Assembly: GCF_028464145.1 (NCBI RefSeq)
Contig: NZ_JAQPCG010000006.1
Location: 124,001 to 188,000, forward strand
DNA: 64,000 bases
From: Maribacter sp. PR1
Lineage (GTDB): Bacteria > Bacteroidota > Bacteroidia > Flavobacteriales > Flavobacteriaceae
Direction of reading: 5' to 3'
Under the pieces are notes generated by a model. The model did not search any database and had not been told where the DNA came from. It saw only the letters and a list, made by a program, of their open reading frames with translations. This document shows, piece after piece, positions 7,416 through 61,236 of this stretch. The position numbers and the translations under genes are program-made. The first letter of the stretch is position 1. Each line of letters opens with the position of its first letter.

Positions 7416-8912
7416 ATGGCCTCAGTTTTAAAGAGAGAAAGTGTCTTCGAGAATATCCCATCGATTAAAGCCAAAACTTTAAGAATAAACTTAAATCCAG
7501 ATATCTACGGTACTTTCGCAGAAATTGGAGCTGGGCAGGAAACCGCTCGTCACTTTTTTAGGTCTGGCGGGGCATCAGGAACCATTGCGAAGGCAATGAG
7601 TGCCTATGATAAAGATTTTAGTGATGCCATCTATGGTATTGAAAGAGACGGGCGCTATGTTACCCAAGCTAGATTAAAGACCATGCTGCAATATGAAATG
7701 CAGTTAATGAAGGAACGAATTAGCCGAAAAAAGCATCCGAATAGAGTATTCTTTTCTTATGCAAATACCGTTGCTACCATAGATTTTTCAAAACGATACA
7801 AAGGTCATGGTTGGGTAGGTATTAGATACCAGTTGGATCCTGGACAAGAGGAATTAGATGAAATTGTTTTGCATGTCCGGTTTAAACAAAACGAAGCGAG
7901 GCTACAGCAAGAAACCTTGGGTATCTTAGGAGTTAACCTCATTTACGGAGCTTTCTATAAGTACCATAAGCCTAAGAAAATGCTGAAGTATTTGTATGAC
8001 CATATTGATAAGGATACTCTGGAAATTGATATGATCAATTTTTCAGGTCCGAATTTTAAGGAGGTCGATAACCGATTGATGAGTCTACAATTGATTCGAA
8101 ATGACATGACAGACGCTGTTATGTTCGGTCCGGACGGTAATAACCTTTTACCTGCAGCGGTATTGTACAAGAAGAATATTTTGGCCCTTAGAGGTAGTTT
8201 TAGACCTGTAACGAAGGTTAATTTGGATATGTTTGAAAAATCCTATGATATTTTCATTAGAGACCCCCAGGTTGACCAAGACAATAGTATCGTGATTTTT
8301 GAAATCACCTTGTCCAATTTAAAGGCTTCTGGAGAAATCGATGAAGAAGATTTTATGGGCAGGGCGGAACTTCTATGTTCATTAGGGCATTCGGTAATGA
8401 TCTCCAAATTCCAAGAATACTATAAGCTAGTAGAGTATTTCAACAACTATACCAAGAATAGGATAGGACTTACCATGGGGGTAAATAACCTTATAGATAT
8501 TTTTGACGAAAAATACTATCGTCATTTGAGTGGAGGTATTTTGGAGGCATTTGGAAAGTTATTTTTCAAGGATTTACAGGTCTACCTCTATCCTATGAAG
8601 AATCCTGATACGGGACAAGTAATGACCAGCAACAATGTAAAAGTCCATCCAAGAATGAAGGAACTTTATAAATTCTTCAAGTACAATGGAAAGGTAATGG
8701 ACATCATTGATTACGAACCAGAAATAATGAACATATTTTCAAGGGACGTGCTTAGAAAAATCATGAACGGGGAAGACGGATGGGAGGAAATGTTACCAGA
8801 AGGAATTGCGGAAATAATAAAAGATAAAAACCTTTTCACAAAAAAGAAATTAGAGGAAGAAGCCCAACAAAAAGAGGAAAAAGAAGAAAAGGAAACAGAA
8901 AAGCTGAAATAA
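7416..8912 (+). CDS. Conserved 498-aa protein of unknown function
   Basis: 498 aa, soluble, no signal peptide or membrane helix. The conserved core near the N-terminus is FAEIGAGQETARHFFRSGG, then SGTIAKAMSAYDKDFSDAIYG. I recognise it as a family found in Bacteroidota, cyanobacteria and myxobacteria. Database names such as TonB-dependent receptor or nicotinate-nucleotide adenylyltransferase circulate for it; neither is supported here, as there is no barrel, no plug and no HxGH nucleotidyltransferase motif. The last ~35 residues are a highly charged Lys/Glu tail. It has its own promoter and a strong terminator. It is monocistronic, so context does not suggest a function. Confidence 0.8.
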   Translation: MASVLKRESVFENIPSIKAKTLRINLNPDIYGTFAEIGAGQETARHFFRSGGASGTIAKAMSAYDKDFSDAIYGIERDGRYVTQARLKTMLQYEMQLMKERISRKKHPNRVFFSYANTVATIDFSKRYKGHGWVGIRYQLDPGQEELDEIVLHVRFKQNEARLQQETLGILGVNLIYGAFYKYHKPKKMLKYLYDHIDKDTLEIDMINFSGPNFKEVDNRLMSLQLIRNDMTDAVMFGPDGNNLLPAAVLYKKNILALRGSFRPVTKVNLDMFEKSYDIFIRDPQVDQDNSIVIFEITLSNLKASGEIDEEDFMGRAELLCSLGHSVMISKFQEYYKLVEYFNNYTKNRIGLTMGVNNLIDIFDEKYYRHLSGGILEAFGKLFFKDLQVYLYPMKNPDTGQVMTSNNVKVHPRMKELYKFFKYNGKVMDIIDYEPEIMNIFSRDVLRKIMNGEDGWEEMLPEGIAEIIKDKNLFTKKKLEEEAQQKEEKEEKETEKLK

Positions 8913-8944
8913 AACAAAACCCCTTAATTAAGGGGTTTTGTTTT
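8911..8944. terminator. Perfect 34-bp palindromic bidirectional terminator
   Basis: AAAACAAAACCCCTTAA and its exact reverse complement join without a spacer. As RNA from either strand it forms an A-rich/U-rich flanked hairpin with a CCCC/GGGG core. It lies between the convergent 498-aa protein gene and bcp and touches the last base of the bcp stop codon. Confidence 0.9.
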
Positions 8945-9396
8945 CAATCTAATAGCTGGGCCGCATGGTCCTTGGTTTTTACTTTATCGATTACCTTGCT
9001 CACCTCTCCTTGCTCATTTATAACAAAAGTTTTTCTGTGTATACCATCATATTCCCTTCCCATAAATTTCTTAGGACCCCAAACACCAAAAATATTCAAT
9101 ACGGTATGATCTTCATCCGCCAATAATGGGAATGGAAAATCATATTTGTTTTTAAAGTTCAACTGCTTTTTCTGAGAATCAGCACTTATTCCAAGAAGTT
9201 CGTAACCGGCATCTTGAAGCGCTTTGTAATTATCCCTTAAATTACAAGCCTCGGCTGTACAACCCGGAGTATTTGCCTTAGGATAGAAAAAAACAATTAA
9301 TTTCTTACCGGAGTAATCCGATAAATTAATAGTATTGCCATCTTGATCATTGGCTGAAAATTCCGGGATCTTATCCCCTACTTTTAAAGTATTCAT
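8944..9396 (-). CDS. bcp: Thioredoxin-dependent thiol peroxidase (BCP peroxiredoxin)
   Basis: 150 aa from the ATG at 9394-9396. It reduces hydrogen peroxide and organic hydroperoxides in the cytosol with electrons from thioredoxin. The peroxidatic cysteine is C46 in PKANTPGCT and the resolving cysteine is C51 in the AEACNLRD helix, the arrangement of atypical two-cysteine BCPs. Length is normal for the family. A TTG two codons upstream (9400-9402) is the other possible start; ATG gives the conventional MNTLKVGDKIPEF N-terminus. Divergent from nth with a ~50-bp spacer. Confidence 0.95.
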   Translation of the reverse strand: MNTLKVGDKIPEFSANDQDGNTINLSDYSGKKLIVFFYPKANTPGCTAEACNLRDNYKALQDAGYELLGISADSQKKQLNFKNKYDFPFPLLADEDHTVLNIFGVWGPKKFMGREYDGIHRKTFVINEQGEVSKVIDKVKTKDHAAQLLD

Positions 9397-9446
9397 AGTC
9401 AATTTTTTATTTTGTTCAATATTCTAATTGTAAAATTAAACAAATA

Positions 9447-10109
9447 ATGACGAAGGCAGAAAAAGTATCTTTCGTAATTTCCAAATTACAAGAATTTTAT
9501 CCTGAAATTCCGATTCCCCTTGAGCACAAGGACCCCTACACGCTTTTGATCGCGGTACTAATGTCCGCCCAAAGTACGGACGTTCGTGTAAACAAAATAA
9601 CACCTTTACTTTTTAAACGGGCAGATAACCCCTTCGATATGGTAAAATTGAGCGTGGAAGAAATACGGGAAATTATTAGACCGGTTGGTTTATCTCCCAT
9701 GAAATCGAAAGGAATTCACGGGCTATCCAAGATTTTAATTGAAAAATATAATGGTGAAGTTCCAAAAGACATGAGTTTGTTGGAAGAACTACCTGCAGTT
9801 GGCCATAAAACAGCTAGTGTTGTGGTTTCACAAGCTTTTGGAATTCCGGCTTTCCCAGTGGATACCCATATCCACAGATTGATGTACCGGTGGGGCTTTT
9901 CAAATGGAAAAAATGTAGTACAGACGGAAAAGGATGCAAAAAGATTGTTTCCCAAGGATTTATGGAACGAATTACACTTACAGATAATTTGGTACGGAAG
10001 GGATTACTCACCTGCTAGAGGATGGAACCTGGAAAAGGACATAATTACCAAAACCATAGGGAGAAAGACCGTTCTGGCCGAATATTATCGCAAAAAAAAG
10101 ACCCGCTAA
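9447..10109 (+). CDS. nth: Endonuclease III (DNA glycosylase/AP lyase) without iron-sulfur cysteines
   Basis: 220 aa. Base-excision repair enzyme for oxidised pyrimidines. The helix-hairpin-helix reads LPAVGHKTASVV with catalytic K121, and catalytic D139 is in FPVDTHIHR. After the family-conserved YGRDYSPARGW the C-terminus continues LEKDIITKTIGRKTV; the four cysteines (Cx6Cx2Cx5C) that hold the 4Fe-4S cluster in E. coli Nth are absent, and the protein has no cysteine at all there. The frame is intact and the length is normal, so this is not a truncation. The stop codon lies in the loop of the downstream terminator hairpin. Confidence 0.93.
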   Translation: MTKAEKVSFVISKLQEFYPEIPIPLEHKDPYTLLIAVLMSAQSTDVRVNKITPLLFKRADNPFDMVKLSVEEIREIIRPVGLSPMKSKGIHGLSKILIEKYNGEVPKDMSLLEELPAVGHKTASVVVSQAFGIPAFPVDTHIHRLMYRWGFSNGKNVVQTEKDAKRLFPKDLWNELHLQIIWYGRDYSPARGWNLEKDIITKTIGRKTVLAEYYRKKKTR

Positions 10110-10126
10110 GCGGGTCTATATTTTTT
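10092..10126. terminator. Bidirectional terminator between nth and the 47-aa gene
   Basis: Stem AGACCCGC/GCGGGTCT at 10099-10106 and 10110-10117 with a TAA loop. That TAA is the nth stop codon. On the minus strand the stem is followed by eight T (10099 down to 10092), a textbook terminator for the 47-aa gene; on the plus strand a weaker TATATTTTTT follows. Confidence 0.88.
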
Positions 10127-10268
10127 AGTTTAAAAAGGTTTCAAACTCCAAGTCTTTATATTTAACGTCATATAGGGCCTTAGAAAAACTTAATAAAAAG
10201 TTGATTGTTTTAGGACATACTTTCTTAAACTCGGTTTGTTCTTGATAATTAGAGTAAATTTTTTCCAT
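10125..10268 (-). CDS. 47-aa protein paired with an ECF sigma factor (copy 1)
   Basis: ATG at 10266-10268, stop at 10125-10127; 47 aa: MEKIYSNYQEQTEFKKV, then CPKTINFLLSFSKALYD, ending LEFETFLN. It is too short for usual gene calling, but it aligns end to end with the 47-aa protein at 11244-11387: both start MEKIY, share KPxTIxFLLxxSKxL in the middle and end FExxLN. Both lie 70-75 bp after an ECF sigma factor gene on the same strand, and both are followed by a terminator. That makes it a real gene. No known domain; I do not assign a function. A small regulator of the sigma factor is a guess from context. Confidence 0.8.
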   Translation of the reverse strand: MEKIYSNYQEQTEFKKVCPKTINFLLSFSKALYDVKYKDLEFETFLN

Positions 10269-10338
10269 ATTTCCAATGTTGTTACATTAAATTAACGTAA
10301 CTCAAATAGAAATATTGTTTATTGTATTATCTCTCTAG

Positions 10339-53650: not shown

Positions 53651-55294
53651 ATGAAAGTGGACAGAATGGATTTAAAATTCAACCAGAACGAAGACAAAAA
53701 CAAACTGCTTTTATCCGAATTAAGAAAAAAACTGGCCCAAGTACAACTCGGTGGCGGTAAGGCAAAAATTGCCAAGCAGCACGATCAAGGAAAGTTAACG
53801 GCACGGGAACGTATAGATTATCTTTTAGATCCAAAATCGGAACAATTGGAGATTGGAGCCTTTGTAGGTGACGGTATGTATGAGGAGCATGGAGGATGCC
53901 CATCCGGTGGTGTTGTTGTAAAACTAGGATACATAAAAAATAGACTTTGTGTTGTAGTTGCCAATGACGCAACCGTAAAAGCGGGTGCTTGGTTCCCCAT
54001 AACCGCAAAAAAAAATTTACGGGCACAGGAGATTGCCATAGAAAATAAACTTCCCATCATTTATTTGGTAGACAGTGCGGGGGTGTATTTACCCATGCAG
54101 GACGAGATTTTTCCTGACAAGGAGCATTTTGGACGAATTTTTAGGAACAATGCCATTATGAGCAGTATGGGCATCACTCAAATTTCCGCCGTCATGGGAA
54201 GTTGTGTAGCTGGCGGCGCATATTTGCCCATCATGAGCGACGAAGCACTGATCGTTGATAAAACTGGAAGTATTTTTCTTGCAGGAAGTTATTTGGTGAA
54301 AGCTGCCATAGGAGAAAGTATTGACAATGAAACGTTAGGAGGTGCGACCACACACAGCGAAATTAGTGGTGTAACCGACTACAAATCCAAGGATGATAAG
54401 GATGCCTTGGATACCATTAAAAATATTATGGATAAAATCGGTGATTTTGAAACTGCAGGGTTTAATCGATCAAAAGCCATTAAACCGAAGAAAAATCCAG
54501 AAGATATCTATGGGATTCTGCCCGGTTCAAGAACCGAGCAGTATGATATGATGGAAATTATTGAGCGGTTAGTAGACGACTCGGAATTTGAACCATATAA
54601 AGATGGCTATGGACAAACCATTATCACAGGATATGCCCGAATTGACGGGTGGGCCGTGGGGATTGTAGCCAATCAAAGAAAGGTAGTAAAAACCAAAAAG
54701 GGAGAAATGCAATTTGGCGGTGTTATTTATTCCGACTCTGCCGATAAGGCGACCCGATTCATTGCCAACTGTAACCAGAAAAAAATTCCTTTGGTGTTCC
54801 TACAGGACGTTACCGGATTCATGGTAGGCAGTAAAAGTGAACATGGAGGCATTATAAAAGATGGTGCTAAAATGGTGAATGCCGTTAGTAATTCCGTCGT
54901 TCCCAAATTCACTGTGGTTATTGGGAATAGTTACGGTGCCGGTAATTACGCCATGTGTGGAAAGGCCTATGACCCTAGATTGATTGTTGCTTGGCCCAGT
55001 GCAGAACTGGCCGTCATGAGCGGTAATTCCGCAGCCAAAGTGTTGTTACAAATTGAAACGGCGTCATTAAAAAAGAAAGGTGAGACCATCACCGAGAAAA
55101 AAGAAAAGGAACTCTTTGATAAAATAAAACAGCGATACGATGATCAGGTTTCGCCCTATTATGCCGCTTCCCGTTTATGGACCGATGCGGTTATAGACCC
55201 AAAAGATTCTAGAAAATGGATTTCCATGGGTATTGAAGCCGCAAATCATGCGCCTATTGAAAAGCCTTTTAATATGGGGGTTTTGCAGGTTTAA
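53651..55294 (+). CDS. Acyl-CoA carboxylase beta subunit, 3-methylcrotonyl-CoA carboxylase type
   Basis: 547 aa carboxyltransferase. GGKAKIAKQHDQGKLTARER, VDSAGVYLPMQDEIFPDKEH, GRIFRNNAIMSSMGI and VMGSCVAGGAYLPIMSDE match MCC-beta rather than propionyl-CoA carboxylase, and the C-terminal GAGNYAMCGKAYDPR and AVMSGNSAAKVL motifs agree. It carboxylates 3-methylcrotonyl-CoA in leucine degradation with a biotin-carrying alpha subunit, which is not in this window. Start at ATG 53651; an internal ATG at 53666 is possible. Its last four bases overlap the convergent gene at 55291. Confidence 0.9.
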   Translation: MKVDRMDLKFNQNEDKNKLLLSELRKKLAQVQLGGGKAKIAKQHDQGKLTARERIDYLLDPKSEQLEIGAFVGDGMYEEHGGCPSGGVVVKLGYIKNRLCVVVANDATVKAGAWFPITAKKNLRAQEIAIENKLPIIYLVDSAGVYLPMQDEIFPDKEHFGRIFRNNAIMSSMGITQISAVMGSCVAGGAYLPIMSDEALIVDKTGSIFLAGSYLVKAAIGESIDNETLGGATTHSEISGVTDYKSKDDKDALDTIKNIMDKIGDFETAGFNRSKAIKPKKNPEDIYGILPGSRTEQYDMMEIIERLVDDSEFEPYKDGYGQTIITGYARIDGWAVGIVANQRKVVKTKKGEMQFGGVIYSDSADKATRFIANCNQKKIPLVFLQDVTGFMVGSKSEHGGIIKDGAKMVNAVSNSVVPKFTVVIGNSYGAGNYAMCGKAYDPRLIVAWPSAELAVMSGNSAAKVLLQIETASLKKKGETITEKKEKELFDKIKQRYDDQVSPYYAASRLWTDAVIDPKDSRKWISMGIEAANHAPIEKPFNMGVLQV

Positions 55295-57045
55295 TTGGAA
55301 ACCAGTCCTGTTATGTTAGAAATCCTAAACAATTGTTGGTTCATATTTTTAAGACTCAATTTAAAGACCTTAGTTTCCTTGCGCTGCGAAAAGGTGCCGT
55401 AATCATGGTAGATTGCTACCTTCAAATAAGTTGGCGTCAAACTTTTATTGCCTAAATATTTAATGTTCACCTGCCAATCCCCTTTATACGTGTTTCCTAT
55501 CAAATATTCCTTGGTGGTATATCCTATTAATTTTTCGTCCTTAACTTGGCCGTAATTGTCCTTTAAGCTATGGTTCCATACGAAGAACCTGTTTTCGGGA
55601 TTTACCAGTTGTAGTTGAAACTCCGCCTCACTATCCGCCCATTCGAATACAAGTCGGGTACCCTTGAAACCTTTATCAGAAACCAGCTTTTTTCGTTTCT
55701 TTACCGATAAAAAATCGTTATCCTTTAAACCTAGTAGGTTATTGAATTCCGTATCCAGGAACTGGGCAAAATCTCCCCTGTCGTCTTTTAGGAAACCCTT
55801 TTCTTTTAAATAATTGTATCTGGTAAACATATCGGCGGCCAACCCAAACTGCTTATTTTCAATATAACTTTCGGCCATATTAAAATAGGACTGGGCATAC
55901 TCCGGCCGATGTATAAATACCTCTTTATAGATATCCTTAGCTATTGAGAATTCATTATCGGCCTGATATACATATGCAAGGGATTTTAAGGCGATGGGGT
56001 TATCCTTGAACACACCATAATTTTGCTGAATGATGGTCTCAGCAAACTCAGCATTATTCCATTTATCCCTGAAATAGATGTAAGAATCCAAAACAAAGTA
56101 AAACGAAGCAGCATACTTGCTACGTTCATCCCTGTAAATATGTATTGCCTCGGCTTCTGAAGCCGCCTTATTATAACGCTCTAAATACTTAGGAAGACCT
56201 TGCTGTGCTGTTATGGGCAAGGCGTCACCGTTATATAAGTTTTTCTGGTTTCGCCGCTCTTTGGCGTTATGAAGATTTTCTTTTTGAACGTTAGCAAACG
56301 TACCTGTTTTGGTATTAATCACCACAACACCGCCCATTACATTACTACCATAAAGGCCTGCACCTCCCATTCCCCGAATTACCGCAATTTTTTTAATATT
56401 TGATGGGTCTATCAAAAAACAGGGTAAGGTATTCATAATAACACCATCTACATCATATATTGCGGTATTGGGACCATAGGTAGTATTATTACTTCTAATA
56501 CTAACTTCAACCTCCCATGTATCTCTATTACAATGTGCCATTACCCCAGCAAATTTTCCATTCATTAAGGTACCGACATCCGTATATTGCACGCCAAAAT
56601 CACTTTCATTTAATATACGCATAGAGTACCCAACGGTCTCCTTGTCCAAATAACCAAAAGCATTTTTTATAATATTGGGATTAGTAGCATATTCCATAGC
56701 CCTTTCCTCCTGCGTTTTCAAACGCTTCCTTACCGTAACTTCATCTAGCTTTTCTACATCATCGAATAGGGTTATATTGAGTATACGTGTTACGTCTTCC
56801 ACCTTGATTTCCAATGGCAACTTACCCAAAAGTTCGAAGCGCAGCACATCGCCTTCTTCAACTGCAATGCGATACTTACCGTTTGCATCCGTAGTGGTAC
56901 CAGTATTTTGATCGTTTACCGAAACGACCACATTTTCCAGGGGTTCATATTCATCTGAAATGGTCCCGAAAACTTCTTTTGTGTTCTGGCCAACCAAACT
57001 GTTTACAAAAACACTGGCGAAAAGAACGTATAACAACTCCCTCAT
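55291..57045 (-). CDS. Barrel-less TonB-plug protein with TPRs (paralog A)
   Basis: 584 aa. Signal peptide to ~19 (LLYVLFASVFVNSLVG). Residues ~22-95 are a carboxypeptidase-like regulatory domain (VFGTISDEYEPLENVVVSVN). A TonB-plug-like domain follows (~125-255): YSMRILNESDFG, GTLMNGKFAGVM, AIYDVDGVIMN, IKKIAVIRGMGGAGLYGSNV and GGVVVINTKTG, the typical SusC/RagA plug. The protein then has TPR-like helices (~320-440: IALKSLAYVYQADNEFSIAK, YAQSYFNMAESYIENKQFG) and a ~130-residue beta domain. There is no beta-barrel. It aligns along its length with the C-terminal two thirds of the next gene's product. Function unknown. Confidence 0.8.
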   Translation of the reverse strand: MRELLYVLFASVFVNSLVGQNTKEVFGTISDEYEPLENVVVSVNDQNTGTTTDANGKYRIAVEEGDVLRFELLGKLPLEIKVEDVTRILNITLFDDVEKLDEVTVRKRLKTQEERAMEYATNPNIIKNAFGYLDKETVGYSMRILNESDFGVQYTDVGTLMNGKFAGVMAHCNRDTWEVEVSIRSNNTTYGPNTAIYDVDGVIMNTLPCFLIDPSNIKKIAVIRGMGGAGLYGSNVMGGVVVINTKTGTFANVQKENLHNAKERRNQKNLYNGDALPITAQQGLPKYLERYNKAASEAEAIHIYRDERSKYAASFYFVLDSYIYFRDKWNNAEFAETIIQQNYGVFKDNPIALKSLAYVYQADNEFSIAKDIYKEVFIHRPEYAQSYFNMAESYIENKQFGLAADMFTRYNYLKEKGFLKDDRGDFAQFLDTEFNNLLGLKDNDFLSVKKRKKLVSDKGFKGTRLVFEWADSEAEFQLQLVNPENRFFVWNHSLKDNYGQVKDEKLIGYTTKEYLIGNTYKGDWQVNIKYLGNKSLTPTYLKVAIYHDYGTFSQRKETKVFKLSLKNMNQQLFRISNITGLVSN

Positions 57046-57240
57046 AAGTGCAACCCTTTAAATTTCAGTAGAATATAATCAAAAAATACATTATTTCTAT
57101 GAACTATTTTGTTAACGAAATATTAATTACAAGCCATTGATGTTCAAGATTGCCTTCGGGTCATCTTGGTAAATGGCATAAAAAAAGATTATGACAAAGC
57201 ATTTATCAAAATCAATAAAAATGTGGTAAAAGCTTCTAGG

Positions 57241-59859
57241 TTAGAGAACTTGAAGAAGCTTGCGGTTGACATCCTCGATATCCATTCTAAAGATTTGAAT
57301 GTTGTCTTTTTGTTCTACGGTGCCATAATTGGTACTTATTGTAATTTTAAGATAGGTGGCCAAGCCCGATTTATTACCCAAATAGTTCGCATTTATTTTC
57401 CATGGACCATCATTCCCATAAATAAAGAAATCTTTACTGGTATACCCTTTTGACACTAGGCTTTCGCCCAATTTTCCATCATTGGTATTGGACCATGAAC
57501 TTAGCGTATTGTTGGGGTCGATGAATTGAAAATCTATTTCGGCCGAGTCGTCGTTCCATTCCAAAAGAATCCGTGTTTTGTTTTCATCCTTATAAAGCAG
57601 GTCTGTAAGCGGGTCATCGGCCTGATTTTCCTTGATTTCCAAAAGTACCTTTACCTCTGTATTGATTACCTGTTGCAGTGCCTCCGGCTGTTCCGAAAAA
57701 TACCCTTCTTTCAACAAATTAAAATACCGCGCATATAGGTTTTTACCCGTTTCCTTTTGGCCGTTCATGACATAGGCATTGGCCAAATCCCTATAGGATT
57801 CTGCAGAATTGGATTTGAAAAGCAATAATTGCTTATATAGTTGAACGGATTGATTTTGATTGTCATATTTATCCATCAAAAACGCCAAAGCCTTTTTGTA
57901 GTTGAAATCATTGTTCAATCGGTCCAAAGCTATCGATACCAAATCCTTCGTGAATGTATCCTGTGGCCAATATTCCAAGAAATAATTGACGGCATCAATA
58001 TTAAAATTAGGGTTTGTTCCATACTTAGATTCATAGGAATCGTAGATAGTCTTCGCTTCATCCGGTTCTTTACTACGATATAGTTCCTGTAGAAAATCAG
58101 GCCAATTCCGTCGAGCTTCCTCCTCTGTAATTGCTTTTATGTTTTCTGCTTTCTGTATAGCACCTATACTTTTGGCCGAAGTATTGTTTGATGGAGAAAA
58201 ATTTCCAAGATTTGTATTGATAATGATGACCCCACCAGCACCAACAGAGCCGTATTTTGCTACTGCTGAAAGACCGGAAAGTATTGCGATTCGTTTTATT
58301 TGGGTAACATCAAGAAAATCCGGATATCCAGAAGCGATAATTCCATCAATTTCATATACCGCAGGGATAGGATTTGAAGTTCCATTCTGTCTTAAAAAAA
58401 TTTGCGTTGAACCATCGGTAGAATTATCAAAGGAAAGCATGGACAAACCGGATACTTTGCCCCTAAGCAGATTACCCAAGGTAGTTGCACCACTGGTAAT
58501 TTCTGACTCATCCAATATCTTCATGGAAACACCAGAGGTATTCTTATCAAAAATACCGAACGAGGTCTTAATGATGCCGGGATCCTCATTATACTGCTCA
58601 AAAAGCTCTTTCTGCGTTCTTTTGTTTTTTTTCTGGGCAGTGACCACGGTTTCGTCCAAGGCTATCGCCTCCTTTTCAAGTGCCACGTTAATCGCAAAAG
58701 TTGTTTCCAATACTGTCCTATGTTCGCTTTGCATGGAAGTATATGAAAATGTTAATTCGTCACCTATCTTAGCCCTCATGGTATATCTACCGCTCTCATC
58801 GGTAGTGGTCACCTCGTTTGAAGATAAATTTTGAACTTGGACGCCTTGTACTCTTTCCCCTTCCATAAACACAAATCCACTTACCACGCCGATATTCCGG
58901 CCCATGCTTTGTAATAATTGCTCATTGGTATAGTGGGTCAACAAATTTTCTTCCTGCAGCACCACATCTTCTGGCTCATCTGAATCTTCCAACAGGGTCG
59001 TACTGACAAAGTAAGTTAGGGCATCTTTGGGATATCTTTTCCATTCCCCCTGGCTGGCATACCTTCTATAAGAAACCCCGGGCGTATCGTCACCTGCAAC
59101 GATAAGCCCTAATTGGTCCCCATATACTTTCAGTAGCTCAATACCTATACTAAAATCGTCCTGTACAACAATATCATAAGGTTTTAAATCGATACCGACC
59201 TTTCCAACTTTAGTTTTTATGGTATACACAATGTTCTTGTTCATTAATCTACGCTTCGGCAATTTTGTTTTGCCATCATAAATATTCACTCGCACCAAAA
59301 GACTATCGGACTTATTTTCCAGGACATAGAAATAAAAGGCATTTAACTGCCTTTTATTTTTGGAAACATTAATTTTGGTAATCAACTCCCCGCCAAGGGC
59401 TCCATCTCCCTCCCAGGAACCGTTCTTTAATTGACCCACATAGGAATAGCCGACCATTTTTTCGGTCTTGTTCCTTCTTCTCCGTTTATCACCGGTTAAA
59501 ACAACTTCATTTAAACTCAGGATATCCGGTTCCAACTTTATTTCAAAGAATTTTGAATTCTTTACTACCTCGGAAAAGGGTATTTTATATTCCTTGTAGG
59601 CAACATAGGAAATTTTTAGGGTATCCCTATCCGTTAGTAAGTTCGAATCAAAGGAGAAGTTAAAGGTACCGTCCTCCTCCGATACCGTTCCAAGGCCACG
59701 TTCTATAAAACCAATATTCACATAAGGCAACGGAAGTCCCGTGTCCGCATCCGCTACAGTTCCCTTTATAACGGTTTGACCGATAATGACTCCATGGAAC
59801 ATAAGGACAAGCCATGTCCAAGCCCATAGATTTCTATCAATTTCGAATTTCGGACCCAT
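57241..59859 (-). CDS. Barrel-less TonB-plug protein with TPRs (paralog B, longer)
   Basis: 872 aa. Signal peptide to ~28 (WTWLVLMFHGVIIG). First carboxypeptidase-like domain at ~32-115 (IKGTVADADTGLPLPYVNIG), a ~170-residue beta region (LKNGSWEGDGALGGELITKI), a second carboxypeptidase-like domain (~325-395: VSGFVFMEGERVQGVQVQN), then the plug (~430-560: GVSMKILDESEI, LGNLLRGKVSGLSM, AVYEIDGIIASG, IKRIAILSGLSAVAKYGSVG, GGVIIINTN). TPR helices (~590-720) and a C-terminal beta domain (GPWKINANYLGNKSGLATYL) end it; no barrel. Paralog of the next gene, 195 bp downstream. The 30-bp gap to the M24 gene suggests cotranscription. Confidence 0.8.
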   Translation of the reverse strand: MGPKFEIDRNLWAWTWLVLMFHGVIIGQTVIKGTVADADTGLPLPYVNIGFIERGLGTVSEEDGTFNFSFDSNLLTDRDTLKISYVAYKEYKIPFSEVVKNSKFFEIKLEPDILSLNEVVLTGDKRRRRNKTEKMVGYSYVGQLKNGSWEGDGALGGELITKINVSKNKRQLNAFYFYVLENKSDSLLVRVNIYDGKTKLPKRRLMNKNIVYTIKTKVGKVGIDLKPYDIVVQDDFSIGIELLKVYGDQLGLIVAGDDTPGVSYRRYASQGEWKRYPKDALTYFVSTTLLEDSDEPEDVVLQEENLLTHYTNEQLLQSMGRNIGVVSGFVFMEGERVQGVQVQNLSSNEVTTTDESGRYTMRAKIGDELTFSYTSMQSEHRTVLETTFAINVALEKEAIALDETVVTAQKKNKRTQKELFEQYNEDPGIIKTSFGIFDKNTSGVSMKILDESEITSGATTLGNLLRGKVSGLSMLSFDNSTDGSTQIFLRQNGTSNPIPAVYEIDGIIASGYPDFLDVTQIKRIAILSGLSAVAKYGSVGAGGVIIINTNLGNFSPSNNTSAKSIGAIQKAENIKAITEEEARRNWPDFLQELYRSKEPDEAKTIYDSYESKYGTNPNFNIDAVNYFLEYWPQDTFTKDLVSIALDRLNNDFNYKKALAFLMDKYDNQNQSVQLYKQLLLFKSNSAESYRDLANAYVMNGQKETGKNLYARYFNLLKEGYFSEQPEALQQVINTEVKVLLEIKENQADDPLTDLLYKDENKTRILLEWNDDSAEIDFQFIDPNNTLSSWSNTNDGKLGESLVSKGYTSKDFFIYGNDGPWKINANYLGNKSGLATYLKITISTNYGTVEQKDNIQIFRMDIEDVNRKLLQVL

Positions 59860-59889: not shown

Positions 59890-61236
59890 CTAATTCCCCT
59901 GGTGCCCTTTTATCCTGGGAATCAATAACAATTCTGTTTGCCTGCCATTGACATACCTAAAACCATCCTGACCATAAAAGCCCGCTTCTTCCAACATGAT
60001 TCGAATGTCCCGTTTCCATTCTGGAATGTTTACTGTAGTATTTAATTCAATGGCATATACCGTATTCGGGTTTAAGGGATAGTTCTCACCATCGTCTTTC
60101 ATAACCCCATCTTGGGAATCCCACATACCAATGGTGGTACCGGCAGAATGGCCATACATGCCCAATGGATGTGTATAAATTGAGGGTCTTAACCCGGCCG
60201 CTTTAGCTTCGCTTAACGACTTTGCTAAAATTTCATTTCCCGTTCTACCAGTTTGCATGTTTGTGGTCAAGAAATCTTGAACGCGATTTCCATCTTTTAA
60301 CCCATTTATCAAGAAATCTGGAGCTTTCTTTTCCTCGGGCTTCAGAACATAGGCCAATTCCTGACAATCCGTATTCAATCGCAAATACGTAATGCCAAAA
60401 TCACAATGCAACAAATCGCCGGGGAGAATGACCATATCTTCCGGTCTACCGGAAAACGAATACAAATGCCCCACAAGTTCTTCACTGGTGCGTTGGATAT
60501 CCACAGTTGGGTGAAACCAGGTTTCCAGTCCCAAATCCGTTACTTTTTGTCGCATCCACCACTCCACTTCCGAGGTTGTGGTAATCCCCGGAGTAATTAC
60601 TTTTTCTGAGAAGGCCTCGGCAATGATATCATGGGTAATATCTACCAATTGATTATAGATTACCATTTCCCGATCAGTTCTTGTTTCTATCCAACGTACG
60701 GCTAATTGTTCAGCTGACGCAACCCTTGAGCTGAATTTTTTGGGCAAGTTGGCCATAAATTCATCGTAATCCGTTTTGTCCAATCCGTCCGCTATATTGT
60801 GGTCTTTTGAGAAATTTAATCCTATTGTTTTTGGATTTCTTTCCGAAATCAATTGCATCAATCGTTTCCACTGATCGGGTTCTTTTTCCTTGTCCCAGGC
60901 AGATTCTATGTTTTTGCCAACATTGTATCGGGCTACTGCCAATTTTTCGATACTGTTTTTATCCTTATCGCGATAGAATACTAAAATGGTCCTTCTTCTG
61001 GCATTTAACCAGGTCGCCGGTAACATAGTCCTTAGAACCGGATCCTCATTATATTCCCTAGATATAACTACCCACATATCGATGTTTGCGGCATCCATGA
61101 GCTGTGGCAAAAGGTTATTGAATCGTTCATCCAAAATTTCATCAATGACTTTTGCACGTTCATTTTCTTTCAAGATTCTTTGTGCGTTGAGACTTATTAC
61201 GGAAATCAACATCAATAGTAAAAGGGGTCTTTTCAT
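59890..61236 (-). CDS. Secreted M24 family metallopeptidase (aminopeptidase P-like)
   Basis: 448 aa. Signal peptide MKRPLLLLMLISVISLNA, cut before QRILK. The pita-bread domain carries DFGITYLRLNTD (two metal aspartates 11 apart), the histidine of THPLGMYGHSAG, E in VYAIELNTTV and a last E in RQTELLLIPR. N-terminal creatinase-like domain spans ~35-200. It would cut an N-terminal residue, perhaps before proline, in the periplasm. It lies 15 bp after menE and 30 bp before the plug-TPR gene. Confidence 0.88.
   Translation of the reverse strand: MKRPLLLLMLISVISLNAQRILKENERAKVIDEILDERFNNLLPQLMDAANIDMWVVISREYNEDPVLRTMLPATWLNARRRTILVFYRDKDKNSIEKLAVARYNVGKNIESAWDKEKEPDQWKRLMQLISERNPKTIGLNFSKDHNIADGLDKTDYDEFMANLPKKFSSRVASAEQLAVRWIETRTDREMVIYNQLVDITHDIIAEAFSEKVITPGITTTSEVEWWMRQKVTDLGLETWFHPTVDIQRTSEELVGHLYSFSGRPEDMVILPGDLLHCDFGITYLRLNTDCQELAYVLKPEEKKAPDFLINGLKDGNRVQDFLTTNMQTGRTGNEILAKSLSEAKAAGLRPSIYTHPLGMYGHSAGTTIGMWDSQDGVMKDDGENYPLNPNTVYAIELNTTVNIPEWKRDIRIMLEEAGFYGQDGFRYVNGRQTELLLIPRIKGHQGN

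Follow-up and report, generated by a model that had tools for sequence, protein, structure and literature searches.

Two neighbouring genes of the marine bacterium Maribacter sp. PR1 encode predicted secreted proteins, P1 and P2. Judging from sequence profiles and structural models, each carries the gate of a transporter that takes up nutrients through the outer membrane, but not the pore that goes with it. This gate is the plug, known from TonB-dependent transporters. P1 and P2 are intact paralogs with 30% identity across 570 aligned positions (E 2e-76), far beyond chance, and both reading frames are open from end to end on the minus strand, as an earlier, sequence-only reading had described them. 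The genes lie in a 64,000-nt window (NZ_JAQPCG010000006.1, 124,001–188,000, forward strand), within which the following coordinates are counted; CPD denotes a carboxypeptidase-D-like domain.

53651..55294 (+) Carboxyl transferase (acyl-CoA carboxylase type), converging, conserved downstream flank; Pfam, synteny
55291..57045 (−) P1, 584 aa (type A): signal, CPD, plug, TPR-like helices, DUF2135; open frame, Pfam, model
55315..55668 (−) P1 C-terminal beta domain (DUF2135), residues 460–577; Pfam, model
55684..56280 (−) P1 TPR-like helical region, residues 256–454; model, profile match
56296..56724 (−) P1 plug with leading helix, residues 108–250; Pfam, model, 6z9a_B Z 11.0
56731..56748 (−) P1 TonB-box-like motif LDEVTV, residues 100–105, low-confidence linker; model, alignment
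56755..56982 (−) P1 CPD (SusC NTE-like), residues 22–97; Pfam, 9hfj Z 14.4
56986..57045 (−) P1 signal peptide region, residues 1–20, lipobox not seen; sequence, helix 2–21 in model
57241..59859 (−) P2, 872 aa (type JA): signal, CPD, beta sandwich, CPD, plug, TPR-like, DUF2135; open frame, Pfam, TIGR04056, model
57247..57579 (−) P2 C-terminal beta domain (DUF2135), residues 761–871; Pfam, model
57592..58125 (−) P2 TPR-like helices, residues 579–756; model
58204..58626 (−) P2 plug, residues 412–552; TIGR04056, 8aa4_A, model
58642..58659 (−) P2 second TonB-box-like motif LDETVV, residues 401–406, low-confidence linker; model, alignment
58666..58890 (−) P2 second CPD, residues 324–398; Pfam, model
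58990..59469 (−) P2 beta-sandwich domain, residues 131–290, within a separate gene (J) in relatives; model, relatives
59497..59514 (−) P2 first TonB-box-like motif LNEVVL, residues 116–121; model, alignment
59524..59775 (−) P2 first CPD, residues 29–112; Pfam, model
59776..59859 (−) P2 N-terminal signal region, residues 1–28, lipobox not seen; sequence, helix 9–25 in model
59890..61236 (−) M24 peptidase with signal-like N-terminus, conserved upstream flank, 30 bp before P2; Pfam, synteny

Domain organization of P1 and P2

The signal, carboxypeptidase-like domain, full plug fold, TPR helices and C-terminal beta domain ascribed earlier to both proteins are all borne out by the sequences, Pfam, TIGR04056, profiles and AlphaFold2. 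P1 matches CarbopepD_reg_2 at residues 27–105 (43.8 bits, cut-off 32.2) and Plug at residues 136–240, where profile positions 3–107 of 107 are covered (26.8 bits, cut-off 23.9). Its CPD resembles the NTE of SusC (9hfj, Z 14.4), and 108 residues of its plug superpose on the SusC plug 6z9a_B (Z 11.0, rmsd 2.9). P2 contains CarbopepD_reg_2 twice. Pfam reports no Plug match for P2 even at E 1; its plug is detected by TIGR04056 (best stretch residues 433–637 on profile positions 85–288), with a whole-protein score of 132.4 bits that is far below the model's whole-protein cut-off of 368.25. Foldseek matches for this plug include SusC 8aa4_A (28% identity over 109 columns); the top Foldseek rows for P2, with rmsd of ~20–30, were disregarded. 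By profiles and structures, the plug of SusC/RagA transporters is thus present in both proteins.

Beyond the plug, the TPR matches of P1 and P2 as single sequences fall under the Pfam cut-offs, but 95 homologs combined into one profile hit solved TPR proteins (~1e-19) as well as SusC plugs (1.6e-23). For DUF2135 (cut-off 22), P2 scores above (26.1 bits) and P1 below (17.1 bits). The VIA list hardly tests this C-terminal beta domain, and its fold is therefore kept as DUF2135. The AlphaFold2 models are of high confidence, with pLDDT 87.6 and pTM 0.70 for P1, and 85.0 and 0.46 for P2. Contrary to what had been said, the two proteins differ in architecture, since P2 has a further CPD–beta sandwich–CPD unit, which relatives encode as a gene of its own (J). 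The extra N-terminal CPD and beta sandwich had been absent from the earlier description; 'jelly roll', as applied to this sandwich (~131–290), is our own label.

Absence of a barrel and origin of the C-terminal half

Signal, CPD (NTE), TonB-box-like motif and plug follow one another in P1 and P2 in the same order as in SusC/RagA transporters (TIGR04056; Bt1763), but the barrel is missing and TPR and DUF2135 lie downstream instead. In both models the plug is followed by helices and an eight-stranded domain (256–454 and 462–577 in P1). No outer-membrane barrel is found in either AlphaFold2 model, nor a barrel family by Pfam, in agreement with what had been proposed from the sequence. Homologs with a barrel at that place were not encountered either: Pfam reports no barrel family in the five plug-TPR homologs scanned (L093, L095, L092:5763, L072 and L107). 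Since 190 distinct plug-TPR-DUF2135 proteins have at most 351 residues after the plug and at most 26 after DUF2135, a 600-residue barrel cannot fit. A truncated or frameshifted transporter is ruled out by the open frames, by purifying selection (P1 dN/dS 0.12) and by a C-terminal half that belongs to another family; the earlier exclusion of a frameshift was therefore correct.

The idea that TPR and beta domain stand in place of the barrel is not supported, as this half is a C-terminus that VIT-vWA proteins have in common. The TPR-DUF2135 half of P1 and P2 is homologous to that of secreted Bacteroidota VIT-vWA-TPR-DUF2135 proteins, some of which (L093, L095) have a CPD-plug at the same place. 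Because many VIT-vWA proteins with this C-terminus have no recognised plug, it is the CPD-plug cassette that looks like the inserted part, between vWA and TPR. VIT and vWA seem to have been lost from P1 and P2, for which Pfam reports neither; VIT has no match in their own genome, and vWA is retained in type V relatives. In a tree made by a quick method from about a third of the type A proteins, L090–L092 and L104 among them, and half of the type V proteins, one type A protein (L104_5154) groups among type V; L162_9123_V and L107_2803_JA form long rows whose placement is unsure.

A conserved locus

Relatives came from a genome scan that relied on a single peptide pattern and on 25 C-termini, headed by P1, as the query; of 158 confirmed matches, 80 were retained. 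The conserved locus holds several genes, which domain HMMs built from the same protein set divide into types A, JA, V, Y and J; the CPD is common to them, and most have the plug as well. Both flanks, the M24 peptidase and the carboxylase, are present in 59 of 74 loci, a count that holds for this clade, and the other 15 loci do not show the complete pair; of three distant genomes with a type A gene that were examined, two (L090, L091) have it elsewhere. Type A genes occur in 71 of 74 loci, a figure that follows by construction from a scan query led by P1 and one pattern. Each locus has 0–5 intact plug-TPR-DUF2135 genes, which are frequently accompanied by vWA, YfbK-type or J genes. Most J genes directly adjoin or overlap the A or V gene in front of them (gap −26 to +5 nt in 25 of 33 scored cases), and P2 unites both units in one protein. 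No outer-membrane barrel gene was seen in the locus among labelled neighbours.

A promoter scan gave 16 sites against a mean of 29.3 in shuffles, fewer than expected, and was set aside. Phage origin was considered and rejected (21 pattern matches and no relatives in viral_contigs), as was a known anti-phage defence system (0 of 6 proteins match PADLOC models at E 0.01).

Selection and exchange of the plug

Could the genes be remnants, decaying or selfish, that have survived by chance in a hotspot of duplication? The variable copy number and the broken members in L074, L078 and L124 would fit such a history; the break in L132 is likely a sequencing error because the flanking genes are split too. 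However, dN/dS is about 0.1 (0.08–0.18 for eight of the nine pairs whose Ks could be measured), the loci examined hold 143 distinct type A proteins with a median length of 584 aa, and the C-terminal half is not transporter-derived. We therefore disfavour remnants as hardly credible.

The plug itself is under purifying selection, conserves residues of its own and is exchangeable as a unit. It shares a core (R184, D200, G201, Y232, G233 and G239) with 20 SusC-type plugs, drawn from 56 Plug places in the same genome, whereas K224, A228 and R235, conserved in the SusC-type plugs, are not retained and vary in the plug-TPR family. Residues specific to the family are P208, R219, G238 and N244 (94–99%) and D198 (83%). 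Up to about residue 130 the SusC and type A sequences are misaligned, and the comparison makes no use of that part.

Evidence for exchange comes from close pairs in which one domain diverges alone. Where the mean DNA identity of the remaining three domains is 92% or more, the plug falls below 82% in three of nine pairs; the same count gives 0/5 for the CPD, 0/6 for the TPR and 0/6 for the beta domain. The three plug-divergent pairs share genes, and the counts are small. A first count took pairs with a similar beta domain and was biased; it was repeated for each domain. The reverse count, with one domain at 94% or more and the rest at 88% or less, is led by the beta domain (7/14, against CPD 3/9, TPR 2/6 and plug 1/4). 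The genes are therefore generally mosaic, and part of the plug-divergence pattern is explained by homogenised C-termini.

Tandem copies with exchanged plugs resemble a recognition repertoire, and pyocin S2 contacts a plug (excerpt of PMC11658791). Soluble plugs might accordingly act as decoy or immunity proteins that bind bacteriocins or phage proteins entering via TonB-dependent transporters. We regard this as very improbable: besides the PADLOC and viral_contigs results, plug dN/dS is 0.05–0.13 in three comparisons, so diversifying point selection on the plug is absent.

The TonB-box-like motif

Almost all of the 95 proteins in alignment A2 have a TonB-box-like motif before the plug; the alignment comprises P1 and 94 of 118 candidates, 24 longer, unusual or near-identical ones having been omitted by eye. 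L100 is conserved in 95/95, E102 in 83/95, V103 in 94/95 and V105 in 91/95, and mean information at positions 99–106 is 2.71 bits, compared with 2.01 for the CPD and 1.89 for the TPR, and equal to the beta domain (2.70). The motif occurs in 140/152 CPD-plug, 21/23 vWA-type and 16/19 Y-type cases, against a background of 302/6380 windows over whole proteins that include the motif-bearing stretches themselves. In Bt1763, the TonB box VDEVVV likewise lies directly after the CPD, and its deletion or mutation abolished function (PMC7782687).

These observations raise the alternative of a Ton-coupled soluble machine, in which TonB would pull the motif before the plug and the proton-motive force would remodel the plug, so that TPR/DUF2135/vWA partners are loaded, let go or sent a signal, with no transport. 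The motif segment is of low confidence in the models, and in one relative (L096) a TonB C-terminal domain occupies the plug's slot. Force transducers of the vWA/YfbK fold have been proposed (PMC12204202). Type Y proteins, which combine a vWA domain of the YfbK type with CPD and half-plug, are neighbours in 13 of 74 loci; unlike E. coli YfbK, P1 and P2 have no vWA, and YfbK_C has no match in their own genome. The L096 case comes from one genome, however, and the motif also follows CPDs that have neither plug nor barrel match in the Maribacter genome (strict motif 6/15, looser form 4 more) and those preceding a jelly roll (46/62); it follows the second CPD of a protein, before the plug, in only 10/17. 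Since plug-less and jelly-roll CPDs carry it too, the motif is not plug-specific, and the plug-less control weakens its conservation as proof of TonB coupling. Coupling of P1 and P2 to TonB is possible, and the soluble machine is an unlikely alternative. Its fullest form, a locus for a Ton-energised soluble machine of the periplasm in which TonB-ExbBD pulls barrel-less plugs with their TonB boxes so as to drive or switch a vWA/TPR/DUF2135 assembly rather than open a pore, with the exchangeable plug setting the partner, seems rather unlikely.

A model for P1 and P2

Because P1 and P2 are without a pore and lie within a conserved gene cluster, the plug has been reused for another job, probably the binding of partner proteins. 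We infer, with about even weight for and against, that P1 and P2 act as soluble adaptors or scaffolds, most likely in the periplasm. The products of the locus would assemble into one complex with TPR-DUF2135 as the common scaffold and the plug as the variable, partner-binding part, and the CPD with the following motif may dock the complex on the periplasmic side of an outer-membrane machine (TonB, or BamA POTRA as in BamP). An adaptor, periplasmic or at the surface, had been suggested before; the adaptor idea is favoured here too, but a surface location is unsupported, as no lipobox is seen in the sequences and no sorting-domain family is reported in P1 or P2 at E 1. A periplasmic location would be the simpler assumption.

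A different role would be that of a factor like BamP or the SprA 'Plug', which we take to be a barrel-closing protein: the CPD would dock on BamA POTRA or another outer-membrane machine, and the plug would enter or cap a barrel in trans as gate or inhibitor. The CPD matches the N-domain of BamP (NF053692), a Flavobacterium johnsoniae BAM subunit with a CPD-like N-terminal fold (9n2d_E, Z 10.8, rmsd 2.5, 78 aligned); the profile of homologs matches BamP at E 1.1e-8 over positions 1–114, and P1 and P2 score 32.3 and 50.7 bits with NCBIfam BamP, both far below its cut-off of 230. According to PMC12611786, BamP binds BamA POTRA 4–5, its linker occupies the BamA barrel, unrecognised, mechanistically analogous proteins are possible elsewhere in the phylum, and a T9SS channel opened by a plug deletion is named. 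In the BamP described there, a barrel-threading linker and a three-helix C-terminal domain follow the CPD-like fold, whereas P1 and P2 have plug, TPR and DUF2135 instead; together with the partial loss of SusC-type plug residues and no barrel gene seen among the labelled neighbours, this makes a BamP-like factor quite improbable.

The neisserial plug of Oke et al. (2004) reportedly keeps its structure without its barrel. The isolated FepA plug was reported unfolded (excerpt of PMC11658791), so folding of the P1 and P2 plugs without a barrel rests on the models. Other barrel-less plugs occur in the same genome, namely an M56 (BlaR1-type) peptidase with a C-terminal half-plug and a short CPD-plug protein (L035, L034); they differ from P1 and P2 in matching the plug profile in part only and in having other partner domains. 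The literature searched yielded no published function for these proteins and no mention of DUF2135, and no paper in it combined two of the terms used for barrel-less or isolated plugs.

P1 and P2 belong to a large natural family, with 190 distinct plug-TPR-DUF2135 proteins in the loci examined, whose members are pore-less and have their own conserved plug residues. The family offers soluble plugs for study and a test of roles for TonB besides powering transport; if the Ton-energised reading were true, the Ton system would be used for something other than transport. For the Flavobacteriaceae, there is a function to be found for a locus that has been held in place across a clade.

Domain content of P1 and P2

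P1 (584 residues) and P2 (872 residues) are encoded by intact genes on the minus strand of the window and share 30% identity over 570 aligned positions, identifying them as paralogs. Profile searches with the two proteins detect a carboxypeptidase-D-like domain (CPD), the plug, or gate domain, of TonB-dependent transporters and DUF2135, together with a weak TPR signal; Pfam misses the P2 plug, which TIGR04056 detects. The solved structures matched by a profile built from 95 homologs include SusC plugs (E = 1.6e-23, profile positions 131–251) and, at about 1e-19, TPR proteins. Structure models computed from alignments of 95 (P1) and 61 (P2) sequences have pLDDT values of 87.6 and 85.0, respectively. 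The corresponding pTM values are 0.70 and 0.46, and the packing of the P2 domains is uncertain because of the latter. In the P1 model, the plug (residues 137–247) superposes on residues 96–206 of the SusC plug 6z9a_B (Z 11.0, rmsd 2.9, 108 aligned), and the CPD superposes on the SusC NTE (9hfj, Z 14.4) and also on BamP chain 9n2d_E (Z 10.8). A barrel is absent from both predicted structures. The sequence-only reading of this region, two intact paralogs with a plug, TPRs and a beta domain but no barrel, is borne out by the reading frames, the profiles and the models.

That reading would have been undermined by homologs with a barrel following the plug at the same position. No barrel family was found in the five plug-TPR homologs scanned with Pfam, and 190 distinct plug plus TPR-DUF2135 proteins leave no room for a barrel, the stretch after the plug being no longer than 351 residues and that after the DUF2135 match no longer than 26. 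In the window's own genome, 52 of 56 Pfam Plug places lie in frames of at least 640 residues. The P2 plug is not among the 56 because Pfam misses it, and the four shorter frames are P1 and the following three:

L034:3899-4579, minus strand (contig 21): 226-residue secreted-looking protein with a CPD and plug alone
L035:2677-4365, plus strand (contig 22): M56 (BlaR1-type) peptidase with a half-plug at its C-terminus
L033:1812-4582, minus strand (contig 20): TonB-dependent transporter, apparently split into adjoining ORFs of 585 and 318 residues

Near the M56–plug gene on contig 22 there are also four tandem CPD proteins of 522–537 residues (L208:673-7217, minus strand), all with YWMNTPL near the C-terminus.

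A conserved locus

When species genomes were scanned with 25 aligned C-termini, 193 pattern matches were obtained; 158 were confirmed, and the best 80 of these 158 define 74 loci. They come from Maribacter, Flagellimonas/Allomuricauda, Croceitalea, Croceivirga, Robiginitalea, Muriicola, Eudoraea and Poritiphilus, and from unclassified Flavobacteriaceae, Bacteroidetes and Bacteroidia. Within this best-80 set, an M24 peptidase gene on one side and a carboxylase gene on the other flank 59 of the 74 loci. Four have the M24 side alone and four the carboxylase side alone (for L134, one of the latter, the contig is long but no M24 gene is labelled on it); the seven with neither flank are all on contigs of 3.3–5.5 kb. 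Among genomes outside the 74-locus set, the type A genes (CPD-plug-TPR-DUF2135, as in P1) of L090 and L091 are located elsewhere, and that of L092 is inside the locus.

The usual order, with variations, is menC – CPBP – menE – [Y] – M24 – [V] – [A]n – [J] – carboxylase, where V is a vWA-bearing relative and J is a unit that is fused to A in type JA (P2) or encoded separately. In the window, the M24 gene is followed after 30 bp by P2, and P2 after 195 bp by P1. The distinct proteins of loci L070–L183 comprise 143 A, 42 J, 26 V, 19 Y and 14 JA, three VIT-domain (VIT) proteins with a plug and six without one, 22 other proteins or fragments, 10 short plugs or fragments and 15 cut by contig edges. 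Intact A and JA copies number 0 in 3 of the 74 loci, 1 in 32, 2 in 27, 3 in 7, 4 in 4 and 5 in 1. An A or V gene precedes J in 33 scored cases; the gap between them is −26 to +5 nt in 25 and below 20 nt in 28, these lengths depending on start codons assigned by our own rule.

Thirteen of the 74 loci have, directly upstream of M24, a gene for a type Y protein (e.g. L070:1319-3397, plus strand), which combines a YfbK-type vWA with a CPD and a half-plug; YfbK_C has no match in the window's own genome. In L092, an MG2 (alpha-2-macroglobulin-like) protein (7603-10317, minus strand) lies between the M24 and type A genes, the usual position of V.

Origin of the C-terminal half

The C-terminal half of P1 finds matches in 37 of 60 genomes, its own included, several of them weak and over the TPR part. 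That of P2 matches 29 of 296 phylum-wide genomes, or 28 without its own, and frames from 27 of these 28 were inspected. Three have the CPD-plug-TPR-DUF2135 architecture, and one (L067) is a different TPR protein. The others differ in the slot between vWA and TPR: four have a plug (with a CPD match in L044, L059 and L065 and none in L060), four a CPD without a plug (L051, L056, L057 and L064), one a TonB C-terminal domain (L045, the same gene as L096) and 14 nothing recognised. L061, whose slot has no recognised domain, clusters with L060, L064 and L065 in the tree, so either the slot changes fast or the profiles used miss its content.

Full-length VIT-vWA-CPD-plug-TPR-DUF2135 proteins occur in L093 and L095. 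L096:5741-8974 (minus strand), found in one genome, is VIT-vWA-TonB_C-TPR-DUF2135, with PF03544 where its relatives have CPD-plug. L097–L100 and L109 are VIT-TPR-DUF2135 proteins with no plug above the cut-off, L109 having a match below it. In L093 (1478-11001, genome G018), this gene lies close to one for a large helicase that carries REase_MTES_1575 and DUF4011 domains, possibly in a defence island, and L094 (genome G033) has a similar gene order.

A tree built from 93 C-terminal halves has a 100% branch that splits the locus proteins (A, JA and V) from the VIT proteins; A and JA (41 and 14 rows) are separated at 99%, and V groups at 96% with one type A inside. The tree requires two changes in vWA presence and five in plug presence. 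In the simplest history, a VIT-vWA-TPR-DUF2135 ancestor with CPD-plug would have lost VIT to give V and then vWA to give A, including P1, a direction that depends on taking the VIT proteins as the outgroup. One A lineage would then have acquired a CPD–beta sandwich–CPD unit, giving JA and P2.

Domain exchange and selection

Two closely related type A genes, L080:5860-7602 (plus strand) of M. stanieri and L105:5994-7736 (plus strand), are 98–99% identical in CPD windows and 68–80% identical in windows starting at residues 106–271, with sharp borders. Outside the CPD/plug region identity is mostly 97–100%, with a second dip to 81–93% around residues 361–406. Across residues 106–205, the M. stanieri segment and that of a third species are 96.7% identical. 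Judged from these identities, the difference is an exchange of the plug cassette.

Among 9730 pairs from 140 type A genes, one domain falls below 82% against a mean of 92% or more for the other domains in 3/9 (plug), 0/5 (CPD), 0/6 (TPR) and 0/6 (beta). The reverse, one domain at 94% or more against a mean of 88% or less for the others, is seen in 7/14 (beta), 3/9 (CPD), 2/6 (TPR) and 1/4 (plug), the pairs sharing genes and the numbers being small. The genes are therefore mosaics in which the plug is the differing part and the C-terminus the homogenised part. Tandem copies in Croceitalea dokdonensis have TPR and beta domains that are 99% common and CPD and plug domains at 62–65%.

A dN/dS of 0.12 was obtained for P1 and its M. 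orientalis counterpart. Ks was measurable in nine pairs, one of which is a VIT protein pair: eight give 0.08–0.18 and the remaining, almost identical pair 0.65; the P2 pair is saturated. The plug alone gives 0.05–0.13 in three comparisons. Residues R184, D200, G201, Y232, G233 and G239 are common to type A plugs and 20 SusC-type plugs of the window's genome. K224, A228 and R235 of the latter are not kept in type A, which has its own P208, R219, G238 and N244 (94–99%) and D198 (83%).

A TonB-box-like motif and a proposed mechanism

The TonB box of Bt1763 is VDEVVV (PMC7782687). A similar motif comes after the CPD (residues L100 in 95/95, E102 in 83/95, V103 in 94/95 and V105 in 91/95), located in a low-confidence linker of the P1 model; P2 has two, each also in a low-confidence linker. 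It is found before plugs in 140/152 cases, after a second CPD before a plug in 10/17, in type Y in 16/19, in vWA types in 21/23 and before jelly rolls (P2-type beta sandwiches) in 46/62, compared with a background of 302/6380 sequence windows. C-terminal CPDs, which have little sequence left after them, carry it in 2/6 (first) and 0/42 (second) cases. As a control, 15 of 65 CPDs are in frames without a plug or barrel match, and six of these 15 have the strict motif and four more a looser form, which counts against the motif being specific to plugs. Because the motif also follows such CPDs, coupling of the plug proteins to TonB is possible but seems unlikely.

The A, JA, V, J and Y proteins would most likely be secreted to the periplasm, and the operon and the A–J fusion suggest that they assemble together. 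TPR-DUF2135 would form the common scaffold, the plug would be the variable, partner-binding part and the CPD would dock onto an outer-membrane machine, much as the N-terminal domain of BamP docks on BamA POTRA 4–5 (PMC12611786). The individual domains are already known, and the window's genome also encodes other plug proteins without a barrel (L034 and L035). In the literature searched, we found no publication on the CPD-plug-TPR-DUF2135 architecture or its locus. A Ton-driven machine that does not serve transport would, if true, be categorically new.
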